DNA of 38,767 bases from Melioribacteraceae bacterium (GTDB taxonomy: Bacteria; Bacteroidota; Ignavibacteria; Ignavibacteriales; Melioribacteraceae). The translations under genes and the position numbers were made by a program. Below are positions 18,732 through 27,118 of this stretch, piece after piece. Location of the stretch: contig WGCV01000030.1 of NCBI GenBank assembly GCA_015493615.1, positions 1 to 38,767 on the forward strand. Direction: 5' to 3'. Numbering within the stretch: position 1 is the stretch's first letter; every line of letters begins with the position of its first letter. The notes below the pieces were generated by a model. The model was not told the DNA's origin. It was given only the letters and a program-made list of their open reading frames with translations, and searched no databases.

Positions 18732-19742
18732 TTACATAGTTAAAGCCATAATTGCTTTAGCGGTGTGCAGTCTGTTTTCCGCTTCGTCGTAAACAATTGA
18801 AATATCAGGATTGTCGATTACTGCATCGGTAACTTCGTGGTTTCTGTCGGCGGGAAGCGCATGCATCAATTTTACATTTTTATCGGCAAGCTTTATTCTT
18901 CGTTCGTCGCAAATCCAATCGTGATATTTTTCCAAATCAGTTCTCATCTGCATCGAGATTTCTTCTTCGTTATCGAGATATTCCTGAATTCCGTAGTTGC
19001 CGAATCCGCCCCAGTTTTTGGGAATTACGATGTGAGCGCCTTCTATTCCTTCATCCATGTCGTTAGTAAAGTTCAGCGAACCGCCGCCAAGCTCTGCATT
19101 TTTTTTCGCTTTTTCGACGATATAATCACTGAGCGGAAATTCTTTCGGATGCGCGATTGTCAAGTCAATTCCGTAGCGCGGGAAAAGCAATGCCTGAGTT
19201 TGAGGCACCGAAAGAGGTTTTGCGTGAGTATCGGCGTAAGCCCAGCTTACCGTTACTTTCAAGCCTTTCGGGGTTCTTCCGAAATATTCGAAAATTGTCA
19301 TTAAATCCGCAAGTCCCTGAAACGGATGATAAACATCGTCCTGAAGCGACATTACGGGACGAGTAGAATATTTTGCCATTTCGGCGAGGTAATCTTTCCC
19401 GATTCCGTAAAAACAGTTGCGGGATGCTATTCCGTGTCCCATTCGCGAAAGAATTATAGCCGTGTCTTTTGCGGATTCCCCGTGCGAGAGCTGCATTTTA
19501 TCCGGCGTCAAATCGTGCGCGTGTCCGCCAAGTTGAGTCATACCGGCTTCCATTGAGTTTCTTGTCCGGGTTGATTGTTCAAAGAACATCATGAACAGAG
19601 TTTTATCCTGCAGGTAGCGGGTGGATTCGCCGAGCGCGAATTTTCTTTTCAAATCGAATGCGGTTTCAAATACCGTATCAAGCTCTTGTTTTGTCCAATC
19701 GTCGGTTGTTAAAAAATGTTTTCCTTTAAGTTGTGTAACCAT
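18732..19742 (-). CDS. ygeW: YgeW-like carbamoyltransferase (aspartate/ornithine transcarbamylase superfamily)
   Basis: A 336-residue enzyme predicted to transfer or phosphorolyse a carbamoyl group. The carbamoyl-phosphate motif STRTR (57-61), LSHGES (85-90) and HPFQGLAD (139-146) are present. Several blocks follow E. coli YgeW rather than ornithine transcarbamylase: WAYADTHAKPLSVPQ (167-181), a long AHPKEFPLSDYIVEKAKKNAELGGGS run, IVIPKNWG, YHDWICDERR (273-282) and MHALPAD (293-299). The SMG loop that binds ornithine is absent. The usual HCLP is HALP here (Ala295), which is odd. It is shorter than E. coli YgeW (396). The ATG at 19742 has AAGGAG at good spacing. As last gene of the cluster it may release carbamoyl phosphate from a ureido intermediate, or use another acceptor; the substrate is not proven. 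A simple ArgF is the alternative. Confidence 0.8.
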   Translation of the reverse strand: MVTQLKGKHFLTTDDWTKQELDTVFETAFDLKRKFALGESTRYLQDKTLFMMFFEQSTRTRNSMEAGMTQLGGHAHDLTPDKMQLSHGESAKDTAIILSRMGHGIASRNCFYGIGKDYLAEMAKYSTRPVMSLQDDVYHPFQGLADLMTIFEYFGRTPKGLKVTVSWAYADTHAKPLSVPQTQALLFPRYGIDLTIAHPKEFPLSDYIVEKAKKNAELGGGSLNFTNDMDEGIEGAHIVIPKNWGGFGNYGIQEYLDNEEEISMQMRTDLEKYHDWICDERRIKLADKNVKLMHALPADRNHEVTDAVIDNPDISIVYDEAENRLHTAKAIMALTM

Positions 19743-19771
19743 TTTATATCTCCTTGTTTTAAATTCTCATT

Positions 19772-20238
19772 ATAGCACGCAGATTATCATGATTTATTAT
19801 GATTAAAAGCCGATTTATATTTATTTGAAAAGACTTTTCGTTTAAACTGCGGAGTTTCTCCGAAATTAAGCAGCATACCCACCTCTATCTCAGTAGCTTT
19901 TAAATAATTAAGAAGTTGGGCTTCATGCTCGGGACAAAGATTTTTGTCCGCTTTTAATTCCAGAATTACAACATTCTCTACAATTATGTCAGCAAAATAT
20001 TGACCGACTTTATCCTCTTCATAAAAGACTTCAATTGGAAATTGGCTTTCGCAATACAAATGGAATTTTTTAAGTTCAATGATCATGCTTTTTTCATAGA
20101 CCTTTTCCAGAAAGCCATATCCAAGTTTATTATAAACATTAAAATAAGCTTTAATAATTTTATCTGTTATGTCGCTGTATTTATAATTATCCTTTTTCAT
20201 GATAAATCATAATTGATCATAAAAAATCAGCGTCCTAT
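19772..20238. mobile_element. Cassette 1: inverted repeats bracketing a GxxExxY gene
   Basis: The left arm (about 19772-19804, containing AGCACGCAGATTATCATG) and the right arm (about 20205-20238, containing AATCATAATTGATCAT and AATCAGCGTCCTAT) are imperfect reverse complements over about 34 bp, roughly three-quarters identical by eye. They tightly enclose the gene at 19787-20200, including its stop. The unit sits in the gap between ygeY and the ygeW ribosome-binding site. Mobility is inferred from structure; no transposase is present. Confidence 0.5.
19787..20200 (-). CDS. GxxExxY protein (PDDEXK_3-like), copy 1
   Basis: 137 residues of a small family named for its motif, here GFLEKVY (about 29-35). 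Other family landmarks: the N-terminal ITDKIIKAYFNVYNKLGYG, YFADIIVENVVILELKAD with the nuclease-like D-x(n)-E-x-K arrangement, HEAQLLNYLKAT and VGMLLNFG. The family is assigned to the PDDEXK nuclease fold, but its biological function is not established. The ATG at 20200 has no clear Shine-Dalgarno; the upstream bases belong to the right inverted repeat. It is transcribed with the surrounding catabolic genes but unrelated to them in function. The second copy at 22870-23256 is clearly diverged in sequence, so this is not a recent local duplication. Confidence 0.85.
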   Translation of the reverse strand: MKKDNYKYSDITDKIIKAYFNVYNKLGYGFLEKVYEKSMIIELKKFHLYCESQFPIEVFYEEDKVGQYFADIIVENVVILELKADKNLCPEHEAQLLNYLKATEIEVGMLLNFGETPQFKRKVFSNKYKSAFNHNKS

Positions 20239-20248
20239 TAATCTATAC

Positions 20249-21433
20249 TTAGTAATTTTCAACGAACATTGCATAAAACGCCGATGCTTTGACGAGATGT
20301 TCAACGGGAACCTTTTCGTTAGGCGCATGAGCAAGGACTTCATTTCCCGGTCCGAAACCAATAACCGGAATACCGAAATAACCGTTAATTGTTACGCCGT
20401 TTGTCGAGAAAGTCCACTTGTCCACCTTCGGGTCTTCGCCGAAAAGCTCCTTGTAAGCGTCAATTCCTTTTTGGATTACGGGATGACTTTCCTCCAACTT
20501 CCAAGTTGGGTAATATTTTTCCATTCCGTAATTCAGTCCCGTGTATGATGTTTCGTTATACTCAAGCAGAGTAACTTTCGCGTTCATATCTTTTACAATT
20601 TCCCGAATTTCATTAAGCGCCAGTTCTTTGTCTTCGCCCCAAGTCAATCTTCTGTCCAAATGTATTTTTGCGTAATCGGAAACTGCGCATAAGGAGGGAC
20701 TTGAAGAAACAAACTCGGAAACCACTACTGTGCCTTTGCCGAGGAATTCATCATAAGCGAGACGCTCGTTTAACTTTTCGATTTCCAGCACGGCGCGGGA
20801 CGCGTCATAAATGGCGTTTTTACCTCGCTCGGGAGCGGAACCGTGAGCCGAAACGCCGAAGAATTCAACTTCGATTTCCATTCTTCCGCGATGACCTCTG
20901 TAGATGTTCAGGTTTGTCGGTTCGGTAACGACAACAACGTCCGGTCTGATATTTTCTTCTTCCACAAGATATTTCCAGCAAAGTCCGTCGCTGTCCTCTT
21001 CCATAACTGTTCCGGTTACAAGCAGAGTAACATCTTCGGGGAATCCGATTTCTTTTAGAATTCTTGCCGCGGTAATTGCCGCAATTGGGCCTCCTTTTTG
21101 ATCAACGCTTCCGCGTCCGTGAACAAAACCGTCTTTTATTTCACCGCCGAGAGGGTCAAAATCCCAATTAGCAAGATTGCCTAAATCAACAACATCAATA
21201 TGACCGTCAATCGCGATAAGTTTTTTACCGTTTCCCATTCTTCCGATAATGTTGCCTAATTTGTCAATCCTTACTTCATCGAATCCGGCTTCTTCCATTA
21301 TCGCTTTGTATTCTTTAATCACGCTCTCTTCGTGCAGACTGAGAGATTTATGCTTAACAACGCGCGACAAATTTTCGGCGGTATATTGCTCATACTTTTT
21401 TGCGAGTTCCAAAATCTTTTCTTTTTTATCCAT
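20249..21433 (-). CDS. ygeY: YgeY-family metallo-hydrolase (M20/ArgE-DapE superfamily)
   Basis: A 394-residue zinc amidohydrolase/deacylase. M20 metal ligands and catalytic residues are visible: His78 with Asp80 (DGHIDVVD), Asp111 (GRGSVDQKGG), Glu145/Glu146 (TVMEEDSDG), and a C-terminal His in LAHAPNEK. YgeY-specific stretches separate it from ArgE and DapE: EEDSDGLCWKYLVEE, AYDEFLGKGTVVVSE, DRRLTWGED, YYPTWKLEESHPV and DKWTFSTNGVTINGYFGIP. The substrate is unknown; in gamma-proteobacterial and clostridial genomes YgeY is linked to ygeW, ygeX, hyuA and ssnA and the family is called selenium-metabolism-linked. The ATG at 21433 has AGAGG upstream; the gap to ssnA is 18 bp. It probably deacylates or opens an N-carbamoyl or amide intermediate made by the HyuA-like enzyme (inference). 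Confidence 0.92.
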   Translation of the reverse strand: MDKKEKILELAKKYEQYTAENLSRVVKHKSLSLHEESVIKEYKAIMEEAGFDEVRIDKLGNIIGRMGNGKKLIAIDGHIDVVDLGNLANWDFDPLGGEIKDGFVHGRGSVDQKGGPIAAITAARILKEIGFPEDVTLLVTGTVMEEDSDGLCWKYLVEEENIRPDVVVVTEPTNLNIYRGHRGRMEIEVEFFGVSAHGSAPERGKNAIYDASRAVLEIEKLNERLAYDEFLGKGTVVVSEFVSSSPSLCAVSDYAKIHLDRRLTWGEDKELALNEIREIVKDMNAKVTLLEYNETSYTGLNYGMEKYYPTWKLEESHPVIQKGIDAYKELFGEDPKVDKWTFSTNGVTINGYFGIPVIGFGPGNEVLAHAPNEKVPVEHLVKASAFYAMFVENY

Positions 21434-21451
21434 TCAATTACCTCTTGATTT

Positions 21452-22798
21452 TTATTTAATTCTTTTAAATTTTTTACTCAGTTTATTTCCTTGTATAAAA
21501 ATTTCTTTGTTTACGGCGTCTTCATTTATTGTTTGCAAAACCTTATCTTTCAAAATAAAATTGCCGTTCTGAACGAGACTCTGCGCCTGTCGTTCAAGGA
21601 TTCCGTAAATGTAATGTCCCCAAAAGTTGTTGGAATTAATTGGAGTGGGCGGAACATAATCCCAGATAACGAAATCGGCGCGGTCTCCAACATTCAATCC
21701 GGGAAAATCCTTAAAGTATCTGCGGACAAACGCCAGCTGGTCAAAGTATGTTTTAACAACAAACTTGAAAGCAAGGTCGAACGAAAGACCTTTGTTGCGC
21801 ATCAGAAGAAAATAATTTTTCAATGTCCGCCCCGGATTCCCGTGCATTCCGTCGGTACCCATGAGTATCGGAATTCCTTCCGTAATGCCGCCGAAATTCG
21901 GCAAGCCGACCGCATTATTTAAATTGGAATCGAGGTTAAAAGCAATCGCGCTTCCGGCTCGGTCAATTTCATTGTACTCCGGTTTTGTAAGATAAATTCC
22001 ATGAGCAAGAATACTTTTCTCGTTAAGAAGATTGTAATTTCTTAATCTTCGCAGCGGAAGTTTTCCGGTATTTTCTTTGCTGATAATCGCATCGGTGGGA
22101 TCTTCGGCAAGGTGAATGTGAATGCCGAGTTTATATTCCTTTACTAATTTTTCGGCTTCTGCAAGCGTATCGTCGGCAAGCGTGAACGATGCGTGAAGTC
22201 CGAGCATCGCCTTCAAATCATCATCTGTGTTTTCTTCAAGGAATCTGATATTTTCCTTCAAAGCATGGTTTGCCAACTTTGCTCCGTTTCTGTCCGATGT
22301 TTCAAAGCAGAGCGATGCGCGCAAATTGTTTTCCTTCACGACTTCGGCTATTGCCGTTAAACTTCCCTTGGTCGCATTCGGCGAAGCATGATGATCAAAT
22401 ATGTAACTGACGCCGTTTTTTATTGCTTCCGCGGCAGCCATTTGCGCCGACGCACGAACCATATTCAGGTCGAGCGCTCTGTCTAATTTCCACCACAAAT
22501 TATGCAGTATGTAATAAAAAGAATTAGTGTCTCCCTTAACATCCAAACCTTTTGCGAGACGGGAATAAAAATGATCGTGAAAGTTAACTTGAGGAATTGT
22601 TACTACTCTTCCGGCGACGTTGTAAACATTCGGAGATTTTCTGTGATTAAGTTTTACGGATGAAATGTAGTCCGTAAACTTTTTCGACTCGAATGAAGTT
22701 ATCTTTTCTTCTTCTATTGTAAGATCGCCGAATAGAGGAGTAATTTTGGTTTTGTTGATTTTACAAACCCAAGCATTTTCAATCTTAAATTTTTTCAT
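21452..22798 (-). CDS. ssnA: SsnA-type aminohydrolase (amidohydrolase superfamily)
   Basis: A 448-residue cytosolic metal-dependent hydrolase. The HxH metal pair is His74/His76 (NFHDHFYSRL); a further ligand is in GIHIHLAEDP and the catalytic Asp in GTDGMHGN. Long runs match E. coli SsnA in order: HNLWWKLDRALDLN, FDHHASPNATKGSL, CFETSDRNGA, ILAHGIYLTK, and near the end GDRADFVIWDYVPPTP with NFWGHYIYGI. SsnA-like enzymes resemble guanine and cytosine deaminases, and a role in hydrolysing a purine-derived ring or amine is proposed but the substrate is not settled. The upstream AAAGGATAAAGC supports the ATG at 22798. It is flanked upstream by cassette 2 (GxxExxY) and downstream by ygeY. Confidence 0.92.
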   Translation of the reverse strand: MKKFKIENAWVCKINKTKITPLFGDLTIEEEKITSFESKKFTDYISSVKLNHRKSPNVYNVAGRVVTIPQVNFHDHFYSRLAKGLDVKGDTNSFYYILHNLWWKLDRALDLNMVRASAQMAAAEAIKNGVSYIFDHHASPNATKGSLTAIAEVVKENNLRASLCFETSDRNGAKLANHALKENIRFLEENTDDDLKAMLGLHASFTLADDTLAEAEKLVKEYKLGIHIHLAEDPTDAIISKENTGKLPLRRLRNYNLLNEKSILAHGIYLTKPEYNEIDRAGSAIAFNLDSNLNNAVGLPNFGGITEGIPILMGTDGMHGNPGRTLKNYFLLMRNKGLSFDLAFKFVVKTYFDQLAFVRRYFKDFPGLNVGDRADFVIWDYVPPTPINSNNFWGHYIYGILERQAQSLVQNGNFILKDKVLQTINEDAVNKEIFIQGNKLSKKFKRIK

Positions 22799-22842
22799 GC
22801 TTTATCCTTTAATTAAGTTTACTTAGCGCCTTTGAGACTTTC

Positions 22843-23288
22843 TTACCGCAGAGACGCTAAGACGCAAAGTTAAAAATTATTAACAAACCGCTTGAATCCG
22901 TTTTTTAGTAGAGGGACATTAAAGTTAATTAAAAAACCTAACCGCTTGTCGGCTAATTTTAAATATGAAATTATTTGGGCTTCATAAACCGGATGCATAA
23001 TTTCCGAAGATTTTATTTCAAGTATAATTTCATTTTCAACAAGAATATCAATTCTAAATGATTTTCCTAACTCATGTCCCTTGTAAAACAAAGGAAGACT
23101 GATTTGGTTTACTGCATAAATTTTTCTTAGCTCAAACTCCTTCATTAAACTCATTTCATAAACCGACTCTAATAACCCGGGTCCCATTTCTTTATGGACG
23201 GTAATAGATGCATCTAAAATTTCTTTCGACAATATATTATATCTTTCTCTCTTCATGTTTCTTTGCGTCTTTGCGACTTTGCGGTTAA
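22843..23288. mobile_element. Cassette 2: inverted repeats bracketing a second GxxExxY gene
   Basis: The left arm (22843-22871, beginning TTACCGCAGAGACGC) is the near-perfect reverse complement of the right arm (about 23260-23288, CTTTGCGTCTTTGCG then ACTTTGCGGTTAA), with only a few mismatches over about 29 bp. The left arm overlaps the stop of the enclosed gene. The right arm contains the stop codon of the neighbouring hyuA gene (23285-23287) and a purine-rich stretch just before the GxxExxY start. Its sequence is unrelated to the cassette 1 arms. Confidence 0.6.
22870..23256 (-). CDS. GxxExxY protein (PDDEXK_3-like), copy 2
   Basis: 128 residues of the same family as the gene at 19787-20200, with the motif GLLESVY (about 28-34). 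The remaining pattern agrees: ILDASITVHKEMGPG, FRIDILVENEIILEIKSSE, YEAQIISYLKLADKRLGFLINFN and the typical end GFKRFVNN. The function of the family is unknown; the Asp/Glu-x-Lys spacing suggests a nuclease fold. The ATG at 23256 lies immediately inside the right inverted repeat, whose minus-strand sequence GCAAAGAAAC may serve as a weak ribosome-binding site. It divides the hyuA-like gene from ssnA without breaking either frame. Confidence 0.85.
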   Translation of the reverse strand: MKRERYNILSKEILDASITVHKEMGPGLLESVYEMSLMKEFELRKIYAVNQISLPLFYKGHELGKSFRIDILVENEIILEIKSSEIMHPVYEAQIISYLKLADKRLGFLINFNVPLLKNGFKRFVNNF

Positions 23289-24712
23289 TCTTTTGCTTTC
23301 ACAAATTTGCCGCCAAACACATCTTTAACAACCTGCTTACCACGAAGAAAAGTTTTTTCTACAACCGCACTAAAAATCACATTTTCAAAAGGAGTAAATT
23401 TTCCTTTGCTGTGCATATTTCGGCTCTTTACGGTTTTTTCTTTCCAGAGATTGATTAAGGCAAAATCGGCGTCATATCCTGGGGAAATTTTACCTTTTGA
23501 ACTTAAGCCGTAAAGTTCCGCTGCATTTATAGAAAGTAATCTTACGGTTTGTTCCAGACTTAACTTTCCTTTTTTAAAACCTTCGCTGAAAAGAAAAGAA
23601 ACGCGGTGCTCAACTCCCGGAATACCGCCGTAAACTTCCCAGAAATTCTCCGAAATTTTTTCTTTTCTCGGATTACATCCTGCATGATCGGTTGTAACAA
23701 AGGAAATCGTACCGTCGGCAAGTCCTTTCCACAAAGCGTTTTTATCCTTTTCAAATTTTACGGGAGGAGCTGTTTTAAGATAATTTCTGATAGCAGCATT
23801 ATGAAAGTCATCTTGAGTAAAACAAAGATAATGAGGACAAGTTTCGGCAGTAACCGAAAAGCCGTTTTTTTGAGCAAGCTTAATTTTTTTCAAACCGGCT
23901 TGTGAACTTAAATGCACAATGTGGATACGCGCTCCGGTCGCTTCGGCGGTTTTCATCAGCTCGGCGACAGCTTTGGCTTCGGCTCTCACTGAACGGGCTT
24001 CGCAGTATGCCCGCCATGAATTATCGCCGTTGTTTTGCAACTGTTTTCTTTTGTTTGTAATCAGAGTTTTATCTTCCGCGTGAACAGCCATCGGCTTGCC
24101 TGTGGCTTTAATCATTGCTGCTGTTTTTAAGATTTCATCATAAGTTAAATCGCTGAATTCAGGCATCCCCGAAATCACATAAACCTTAAATCCGACAACC
24201 CCGGCGGCGGATAAATCCGCAATTTGTTTCTCAACGTCAATCCCGCTTCGAATATCTTCCGAGCGCACTCCGCCCCAGAATGCAAAATCAATGTAGCTCC
24301 GGTTTTTAAGAGCGGTTAATTTTTTCTTCAGATTTTTTACATTTGTCACGGGGGGAATCGAAGTGCATGGCATGTCGATAACGGTGGTTACTCCGCCGAC
24401 TGCCGCGGCAAAGGAAGCATGGTCAAAATCCTCGCGGTCTTCAAAACCGGGCGTGTTAAAATGAACATGAGCGTCAATTGCGCCGGGAATCGCCAGCGAC
24501 CATTTTCCGTCAATTACCTCAGCCGTTTTCGGATAAGTTGCCTTAGGAATTTTTCCCGTAATCCTTCTCTTTTTCTCTTTTTCGGCAATGTCGTCCCAAT
24601 TTAATTTTCCGGAACGATAACGAACTTCCTTTATTACGCGGGAAAAATAAATGTCGGCGGGCTGTAAATCATTTCCGCCGACGCTTAATAATATGTTTTT
24701 AAGTACTTTCAT
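23285..24712 (-). CDS. hyuA: Cyclic amidohydrolase (HyuA/allantoinase/dihydropyrimidinase type)
   Basis: About 475 residues that open a cyclic ureide such as hydantoin, allantoin or dihydropyrimidine. Binuclear metal site: His83/His85 (DAHVHFNTPG), Lys177 (GFKVYV), the carbamylated lysine in this family, His212 (AVHAEDK), His in IVHLSS and Asp in TTDHAGC. AAVGGVTTVIDMPCTSIPPVT and VISGMPEFSDLTYDEI are closer to allantoinase than to dihydroorotase. By position it matches HyuA of the yge cluster; AllB is the alternative. GTG at 24715 and ATG at 24712 are adjacent; ATG has the better distance from GGAG and is used. It is 36 bp from the upstream PLP-enzyme gene. Its stop codon lies inside the inverted repeat of cassette 2, so the C-terminus may have been altered by insertion. 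Confidence 0.88.
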   Translation of the reverse strand: MKVLKNILLSVGGNDLQPADIYFSRVIKEVRYRSGKLNWDDIAEKEKKRRITGKIPKATYPKTAEVIDGKWSLAIPGAIDAHVHFNTPGFEDREDFDHASFAAAVGGVTTVIDMPCTSIPPVTNVKNLKKKLTALKNRSYIDFAFWGGVRSEDIRSGIDVEKQIADLSAAGVVGFKVYVISGMPEFSDLTYDEILKTAAMIKATGKPMAVHAEDKTLITNKRKQLQNNGDNSWRAYCEARSVRAEAKAVAELMKTAEATGARIHIVHLSSQAGLKKIKLAQKNGFSVTAETCPHYLCFTQDDFHNAAIRNYLKTAPPVKFEKDKNALWKGLADGTISFVTTDHAGCNPRKEKISENFWEVYGGIPGVEHRVSFLFSEGFKKGKLSLEQTVRLLSINAAELYGLSSKGKISPGYDADFALINLWKEKTVKSRNMHSKGKFTPFENVIFSAVVEKTFLRGKQVVKDVFGGKFVKAKD

Positions 24713-24748
24713 CACTTCTCCGCAAAATAAAATACACGCGGGAGCAAA

Positions 24749-26517: not shown

Positions 26518-26844
26518 TTACCTTAGTAATCGTTCATTTAATATTTCTTGGATATTTCTTCCTCCATCCAGAACAGAATGAATATATATTTGATTATTCT
26601 CAATTTCATAGATTATTCGGTAAGGTTTATAAAGAATTTCCAAATATCTCTTAATTCCGGTAAGTCGCAATTCTTCCGGAATATGACCTCTTTCAGGAAA
26701 TTTTTCTAATTTATAGCAGGTATTTTCGAGCGAGTCCAAAAGTTTATTTGCGGAAGAAATGCTGTCGTTTACGGCGACATAAATAAATATTTCCTTTAAG
26801 TCTTGCTTTGCCTGAGGGTCTATTAATACTTTGTATTTCCTCAT
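26518..26844 (-). CDS. RelE/ParE-family toxin
   Basis: 108 residues with the family layout: KYKVLIDPQAKQDLKEIFIYVA at the start, a helical hairpin (SANKLLDSLENTCYKLEKFPERG), then strands ILYKPYRIIYEIENNQIYIHSVLDGGRN. The YRIIYEI strand and the final arginine-containing strand are typical of ParE/RelE; whether it cuts mRNA or poisons gyrase cannot be told from sequence. It is the second gene of a two-gene module, one base after the antitoxin stop. The antitoxin-first order and close spacing fit a type II system. Confidence 0.9.
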   Translation of the reverse strand: MRKYKVLIDPQAKQDLKEIFIYVAVNDSISSANKLLDSLENTCYKLEKFPERGHIPEELRLTGIKRYLEILYKPYRIIYEIENNQIYIHSVLDGGRNIQEILNERLLR

Positions 26845-26845
26845 T

Positions 26846-27118
26846 TTATTGCAAAGATTTTAGTTCATTTCTCAAATCGTTGAATGTGGATTTAACATCG
26901 GCGGCTTTGCTGTTTTTGTTATTTGTGATTGCCAATAATTTTAACATTGCCATTGTATCTTGCATTTTTTCATAAAGCTTAATGTCCTGAACAACAACTT
27001 TAGCTTCTCCGTTTTGTGTAATCACAAATGTTTTTTGATTTTTGTTAATATCGTCGATTAACTTAGCGGCGTTTGCTTTTAAATAACTTATTGATTTAAC
27101 CGATTCACTTAACTTCAT
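26846..27118 (-). CDS. Phd/YefM-family antitoxin
   Basis: 90 residues. The N-terminal half has the Phd/YefM DNA-binding pattern SISYLKANAAKLIDDINKNQ followed by KTFVITQNGEAKVVVQDIKLYEKM. The C-terminal half is Lys/Asp-rich and likely disordered until it wraps the toxin. The ATG at 27118 has AAGGA about 8 bp upstream. A perfect palindrome at 27134-27151 is placed to act as the autoregulatory operator. Confidence 0.9.
   Translation of the reverse strand: MKLSESVKSISYLKANAAKLIDDINKNQKTFVITQNGEAKVVVQDIKLYEKMQDTMAMLKLLAITNNKNSKAADVKSTFNDLRNELKSLQ

Follow-up and report, generated by a model that had tools for sequence, protein, structure and literature searches.

Two GxxExxY cassettes in one gene cluster

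The window analysed here, a whole stretch of 38,767 nucleotides (nt), comprises positions 1 to 38,767 of contig WGCV01000030.1 from a Melioribacteraceae bacterium (assembly GCA_015493615.1, genome G000). It carries two small genes of the GxxExxY family, each placed between two inverted repeats (arms) that hug the ends of the gene; a gene and its arms together are called a cassette. On the minus strand the run of genes reads allantoinase-like, cassette 2, SsnA-like, YgeY-like, cassette 1 and carbamoyltransferase-like, and both cassettes sit in gaps of this run. Arms consist of tandem degenerate units of 7-8 nt, usually three or more, and fall into two main classes. The class A unit is CRCNRAG (for example CGCAAAG, CACAGAG or CACTAAG), and in class B a terminal ATRGNAC is followed by ACRCNGAT or TTATGAT units. 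The arms of cassette 1 are of class B with TTATGAT-type inner units, and those of cassette 2 are of class A. The features are listed below, with 5' and 3' given in gene orientation.

19787..20200, minus strand: GxxExxY gene of cassette 1 (PD-(D/E)XK nuclease family), an open frame of 137 amino acids; TIGR04256 E = 1e-38, PF13366 E = 1.5e-40
20205..20242, minus strand: 5' arm of cassette 1, pairing with 19769-19804; score 32, p = 0.0005 in 2000 shuffles
19769..19804, minus strand: 3' arm of cassette 1, overlapping the gene at its stop codon and final codons; class-B motif at 19772
22870..23256, minus strand: GxxExxY gene of cassette 2 (class-A arms), 128 amino acids; TIGR04256 E = 5.8e-39, PF13366 E = 6.1e-37
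23261..23285, minus strand: 5' arm of cassette 2, three CGCAAAG units, abutting the stop codon of the upstream gene
22845..22869, minus strand: 3' arm of cassette 2, three CGCNRAG units
18732..19742, minus strand: carbamoyltransferase-like gene, downstream of cassette 1
20249..21433, minus strand: YgeY-like hydrolase, upstream of cassette 1; flank in the empty-site comparison
21452..22798, minus strand: SsnA-like amidohydrolase, downstream of cassette 2
23285..24715, minus strand: allantoinase-like gene, upstream of cassette 2; empty site in genome G004

The profile matches of both open reading frames (ORFs) exceeded the curated cut-offs of TIGR04256 and PF13366 (E values from 6e-37 to 1.5e-40). 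To score arm pairs, the 90 nt on the 5' side of a gene were aligned locally to the reverse-complemented 3' flank, with a threshold of 24. The arms of cassette 2 were 25 nt long and 88% complementary, and their score of 35 was reached in 0 of 1000 dinucleotide shuffles. The pair of cassette 1 scored 32 (p = 0.0005) once the right arm was permitted to run into the last codons; with at most 6 coding bases permitted, the score was 19 and was not significant in the shuffle test (p = 0.18). The cassette of the congener G001 at the same site scored 35 (p = 0.0005, overlap with coding bases permitted), and the class-B motif at 19772 was found with 3 mismatches (shuffle mean 0.08). The arm pairs are real; the observation is weaker for cassette 1 alone and firmer together with the same-site congener and the class motif. 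Two further class-A-like units (CTCAAAG and GCGCTAAG, gene orientation) lay in direct orientation past the right arm of cassette 2, at 22820-22844, and are perhaps the remnant of another arm.

The two GxxExxY proteins of the window were 34-35% identical, and because their arms also belong to different classes, cassettes 1 and 2 did not arise by local duplication. The ORF fills each cassette and leaves no space for a transposase gene; the five Y1-type transposase genes of the genome were all located outside the cassettes. The sequence-only reading had described two GxxExxY genes in gaps of one same-orientation cluster, hugged by inverted repeats, arriving independently and lacking a transposase, and each of these statements was borne out, with the reservation just given for the repeats of cassette 1. 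A recognisable arm pair was found at four of the five GxxExxY genes of the window genome, which thus carries class A and class B together.

The GxxExxY motif and the catalytic D, ExK and Q were all present, and eight residues, including G29, E32, Y35, D71, E81, K83 and Q95, were invariant in 64 of 64 relatives. Judged from these residues, the predicted Cas4/RecB-like PD-(D/E)XK active site is complete; the D..ExK..Q arrangement is known as the RecB-like motif. The AlphaFold2 model showed one small domain with a predicted local distance difference test score (pLDDT) of 91.7. Its nearest structure in Foldseek was Cas4 SSO0001 (E = 2.4e-4), followed by lambda-type exonucleases. VIA-align gave Z scores of 9.8 for SSO0001 (108 residues, root-mean-square deviation 5.7) and 6.8 for the resolvase Hjc, and absence from its table excludes no family. 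A PDB sequence search with the GxxExxY protein gave no convincing match (best E = 0.13). Active site and modelled fold support a predicted active nuclease and leave its substrate unnamed.

The window also contained a ParE-family toxin gene (PF05016) next to a small upstream ORF, at 26518-27118; the small ORF may be its antitoxin.

Arm classes and their coupling to the protein

GxxExxY genes were present in 77 of 96 genomes of the same order, with 231 matches and up to 11 genes in one genome. Of these matches, 125 rows were taken best-scoring first and not as a random draw; they include 12 loci of the genus and 3 site loci, and one row (L110) is the same locus as L019, counted in the arm-score, own-partner and arm-position figures and dropped from the tree and from the orientation counts. 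Arm scores of at least 24 were found at 88 of the 125 order loci (including the one duplicate row), compared with 9.7% of mismatched pairs. Among named genomes, 44 of 77 loci reached the same score (mismatched pairs, 7.8%). The latter scan started from a class-B protein and covered the best 80 of 551 matches, so that its classes lean to B, and 3 of the 80 loci lay at contig edges; its matches span more than 10 phyla, plus one record titled as an archaeon. Among the 88 pairs scoring at least 24, 75 had a 5' arm ending within 31 nt of the start codon, and 83 had a 3' arm within 31 nt of the stop codon. ParE control genes reached the threshold at 0 of 30 loci.

Genes of the four-helix family PF05635 (S23-type) from the same order reached it at 21 of 40 loci (6 partial matches left out, 1 of 41 loci at a contig edge). 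Those at L072-L088 and L200-L228 (23S_rRNA_IVP four-helix) were intergenic, with inverted arms of tandem 7-10-nt units of the TTAGAAG, AGTAATGAGT, GTGAATGGTGAA and AAGCTATAAG types.

Flanks were labelled by unit class without coding bases, and the labels were mapped on a FastTree protein tree. Out of 201 proteins, 53 without a clear class (including the site-1 cassette L009) and 7 of odd length or containing stops were omitted. On the resulting tree of 141 proteins (57 class A, 84 class B) the arm class changed only 2 times, while the minimum over 300 shuffles was 37, which indicates that arms and gene are inherited together. The order loci alone also gave 2 changes (shuffled minimum 26), and the CGC and CAC subclasses changed 7 times (shuffled minimum 13). 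The host label changed 59 times on the same tree (mean of the shuffles 73, minimum 62), and host therefore follows the protein tree weakly. With labels from slightly different motif rules, an arm matched its own partner better than other arms of its class, with median scores of 30.5 and 17 in class A and 30 and 20 in class B, respectively; the TTATGAT subgroup (9 cassettes) showed no such advantage (34 and 34).

Orientation was scored against long-ORF neighbours, which flanked the gene on both sides in 115 of 124 order loci (9 unassignable). The GxxExxY gene was codirectional with both neighbours in 104 of the 115 and against both in none. The corresponding counts were 47 and 2 of 61 in the named genomes (16 unassignable), 28 and 1 of 34 for PF05635 genes (35 of 41 loci entered), and 12 and 8 of 23 for ParE genes (26 of 30 loci entered). 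The cassette probably depends on the host transcript.

Recurrence of the flanking repeats at other GxxExxY loci, their co-variation with protein subtype and the operon-compatible placement had all been proposed from the window alone, and all three were found.

Occupied, empty and gene-less sites

Empty sites were found in relatives, as the sequence-only reading had anticipated. The congener G004, the closest relative found, lacked cassette 2, with flanking proteins that were 88-94% identical, and in G014 the same junction held a gene-less class-A hairpin (by eye). At site 1, the YgeY-like gene was present in 26 of 29 carbamoyltransferase loci. By eye, 6 of these 26 carried a cassette (G000, G001, G004, G028, G030 and G037), 2 a hairpin without a gene (G006, and also G005, whose gap holds another ORF as well) and 1 a decayed cassette (G022); in the other 17 no cassette was recognised, some of the gaps having other repeats or another ORF (G039).

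Between G000 and G004, the genes flanking site 1 shared 92-93% DNA identity and the nearest 120 nt shared 95-97%, but the cassette genes shared only 66%. G001 had more distant flanks (78-83%), yet its cassette gene was 72% identical. The G004 cassette protein grouped on the tree with those of G028, G030, G037 and L157, the last lying between histidine kinase and response regulator genes, as judged by its ORFs. From the near-identical flanks, the divergent cassette genes and the grouping with L157, we infer a replacement of the cassette, with boundaries close to its arms, and the presence of one lineage at two sites. Three further pairs of loci had unrelated flanks: L270 and L271, from one Bacteroidales genome, shared a similar gene and 3' arm; L008 and L127 shared a similar 5' arm and gene; and L273 and L280 shared a similar gene alone, with no recognised arm pair. 

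The class-B pattern, with one mismatch permitted, gave 1073 matches in the same 96 genomes, and the reversed pattern gave none. After two matches per gene were set aside, 722 were left, or 541 without G005. Among 30 matches examined, 4 had a GxxExxY gene within 700 nt, 12 were gene-less hairpins with a partner arm within 200 nt, and 14 were single motifs. In G075 (C21:4109-12727), seven class-B-like motif matches lay on one strand within 9 kb, as a cluster and not as hairpins.

In genome G005, a gene-less miniature inverted-repeat transposable element (MITE) of about 150 bp (L419-L426) had the terminal repeat GAGACCTCTGAAAAAT and a class-B hairpin inside; eight copies were aligned, of which six were near-identical. 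The repeated flank had been considered as the end of an insertion sequence, and this was rejected, since it is a MITE carrying a hairpin. In four further loci of this genome (L404, L405, L406 and L409), a second palindrome (CCACCCCGTGGAATAAATT...GCTATTCCACGGGG) was nested in the class-B hairpins at a similar position.

Mechanism, rival explanations and known systems

In the system of repetitive extragenic palindromes (REP) and REP-associated tyrosine transposases (RAYT), a small nuclease gene lies between cognate palindromes and gene-less doublets are dispersed; the repeat class is tied to the protein and the abundance depends on the gene (PMC3686654, PMC3116915). Subtype-arm coupling, gene-less copies and empty or swapped sites form the same signature, which favours DNA-level recognition of the arms by the nuclease. 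We see close to even chances that the cassettes are minimal mobile units that work like REP/RAYT but with a nuclease of another kind. Such a unit would consist of a gene for a single-domain Cas4/RecB-like PD-(D/E)XK nuclease and, on either side of it, a cognate arm that is imperfectly palindromic; it would settle in intergenic gaps of operons and read with the host transcript. The nuclease may recognise a DNA hairpin or cruciform formed by the unit repeats of its arm class and may cut there, and the unit or a related gene-less hairpin would then be copied or joined into a new gap; cutting of the arms by the nuclease would thus drive movement. More tentatively, we propose that GxxExxY proteins mobilise widespread, previously unrecognised palindromic repeats and are the PD-(D/E)XK counterpart of REP/RAYT, with cassettes facing one direction in operon gaps, hairpins as their non-autonomous copies, and replacement at a fixed site.

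Several observations weigh against a mobile unit driven by its own nuclease. Class-B matches go with the gene, which speaks for the unit, but the raw association (matches in 64 of the 77 genomes that have GxxExxY genes and in 4 of the 19 that lack them) is partly built in because cassette arms match the pattern. Counting only matches beyond two per gene, the figures were 48 of 77 and 4 of 19 (p = 0.0017, ignoring kinship); this corrected association is weaker than the raw one and is uncorrected for phylogeny. Class-B matches also occurred in 16 of 20 genomes seen with class-A cassettes only, where in 17 of the 20 the analysis covered some of the loci. The outlier G005 had 189 class-B matches, a burst carried in part by the ordinary MITE with its own terminal repeats. 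The model of the protein contained no separate DNA-binding domain. Many cassettes keep the same site among related genomes, which indicates slow movement and common vertical persistence; the sequence-only reading had named conserved positions lacking any empty site, or repeats absent from other loci, as outcomes that would count against it, and empty sites and repeats elsewhere were both found alongside these conserved positions. Two anchored ends were obtained for 93 of 201 cassettes, and in the 29 of these that were analysed, all of class B, no target-site duplication was detected, though old insertions could hide one. A TAA duplication at class-A ends was also considered and dropped, as several right ends were GTTA, GTGA or GCTA. 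Finally, the cassette gene stands out in orientation when compared with ParE, but ordinary gene triples in the same loci were likewise mostly codirectional (59 of 71 with both neighbours and 1 against; 29 of 35 and 2 against), so the cassette gene sits as an operon gene does.

The chief rival, which we consider unlikely, is an RNA element like the intervening sequence (IVS) of 23S ribosomal RNA (rRNA), in which the arms form an RNA stem, RNase III excises the ORF from the transcript of the operon, and at the DNA level the unit is a passenger that the host tolerates and that spreads by other means. The Coxiella IVS has the same anatomy: an ORF inside a 28-bp terminal inverted-repeat stem, tandem GACAGAT heptamers just before the start codon, and excision by RNase III (PMC4990558). 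In predicted folds of the two window cassettes the arms close off the ORF (z = -4.1 and -3.75), the cassette gene runs against both neighbours in none of the 115 order loci scored, and the S23-type genes of the same order are built alike in about half of the loci scored (21 of 40). But among 119 arm pairs, mismatches compatible with G-U pairing were not enriched (105 vs 111); such strand-symmetric transitions are expected for a constraint at the DNA level and give no support for selection on RNA pairing. The gene-less hairpins have no ORF to protect, and the neighbours on both sides were long ORFs in 115 of 124 order loci, where no rRNA search was run. Somewhat less probable still is a regulatory or autoregulatory site, in which a stem covering the start codon holds back translation of the nuclease gene and movement is passive, by recombination only. 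The closeness of the arms to start and stop codons and the window folds, which close over the start, agree with such a site; against it, two arms per gene would explain at most 462 of the 1073 class-B matches, and gene-less hairpins occur at the same junctions.

That the hairpins are REP elements of Y1 (RAYT-type) transposases, with GxxExxY genes between them by happenstance, appears improbable. Y1 genes were indeed present in 86 of the 96 genomes, but class-B matches occurred in only 3 of 12 genomes with Y1 and without GxxExxY genes, compared with 63 of 74 with both (the second figure includes cassette arms), and the arm class follows the GxxExxY tree. At each of 20 Y1 loci, the 300-nt flanks contained at most two matches to the A or B units (one locus ends at the gene), and several of their arm pairs were of the GTCCCGTAGGGACGA type. 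The palindromes of the Y1 loci and the Y1-only genomes therefore disfavour RAYT as the mover of class-A and class-B hairpins. These Y1/RAYT loci of the same order (L428-L447) had arm pairs scoring at least 24 in 13 of 20 cases, with REP-like palindromes of their own (GTCCCGTAGGGACGA and related), some of them clustered. Least probable of all is that the arms are residual intergenic repeats which happened to capture GxxExxY genes and are functionally unconnected with them. Gene-less hairpins and single motifs are indeed common, as chance capture would have it, but the two changes of arm class against a shuffled minimum of 37 speak strongly against it, as do the own-partner match within classes A and B and the absence of arm pairs at ParE controls.

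The coupling of arm and protein provides a concrete candidate substrate for GxxExxY proteins and could explain where some of the short repeats dispersed through these genomes come from. If arms are indeed moved by their own nuclease, bacterial palindromic repeats would have a second enzyme fold as their source, beside that of the Y1 enzymes. Similarly wrapped genes in many phyla point to a class of mobile genes, little known so far, that enter operons; the same build surrounds the unrelated S23-type proteins, and mobile genes that live in operons may thus share a general design.

Units of this kind had been called an undescribed class in the sequence-only reading. No link between GxxExxY genes and flanking repeats was found in the literature, most subscription journals lying outside the search, and no function for GxxExxY proteins was found in the literature searched; to this extent the claim stands. 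The build itself is known from REP/RAYT (PMC3686654, PMC3116915) and from the Coxiella IVS (PMC4990558). Two papers naming GxxExxY mention it in passing, the term PF13366 occurs once in PMC9756366, TAACTGA repeats are described in Beggiatoaceae (PMC4679880), and IVP genes are described in rRNA insertions (PMC11270868).

Compared with REP/RAYT, the GxxExxY gene is likewise flanked by inverted cognate repeats, gene-less hairpins are dispersed where the gene is present (an association that ignores kinship), and the arm class co-varies with the protein. Unlike RAYT, the GxxExxY protein is a predicted PD-(D/E)XK nuclease of family PF13366 with a model nearest Cas4 and not a Y1 HUH enzyme, its arms are tandem degenerate units in which no GTAG-type tetranucleotide was seen, and up to 11 genes occur per genome in records from more than 10 phyla. 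The terminal inverted repeat hugs the ORF of the window cassettes as it does in the 23S rRNA IVS, but only PF13366 and TIGR04256 were matched, the protein is unrelated to the S23/IVP four-helix family, and the window cassettes lie between protein genes and not in rRNA, with no RNA-pairing signal. The short length, inverted ends, gene-less copies and empty sites are shared with MITEs and insertion sequences, whereas the cassette has no transposase and the 29 class-B cassettes gave no target-site duplication. The predicted fold and the D..ExK..Q active site are those of Cas4/RecB-type PD-(D/E)XK nucleases; in contrast to these, the GxxExxY protein is a single domain of about 130 amino acids, and in the window all four genes beside the cassettes are metabolic.

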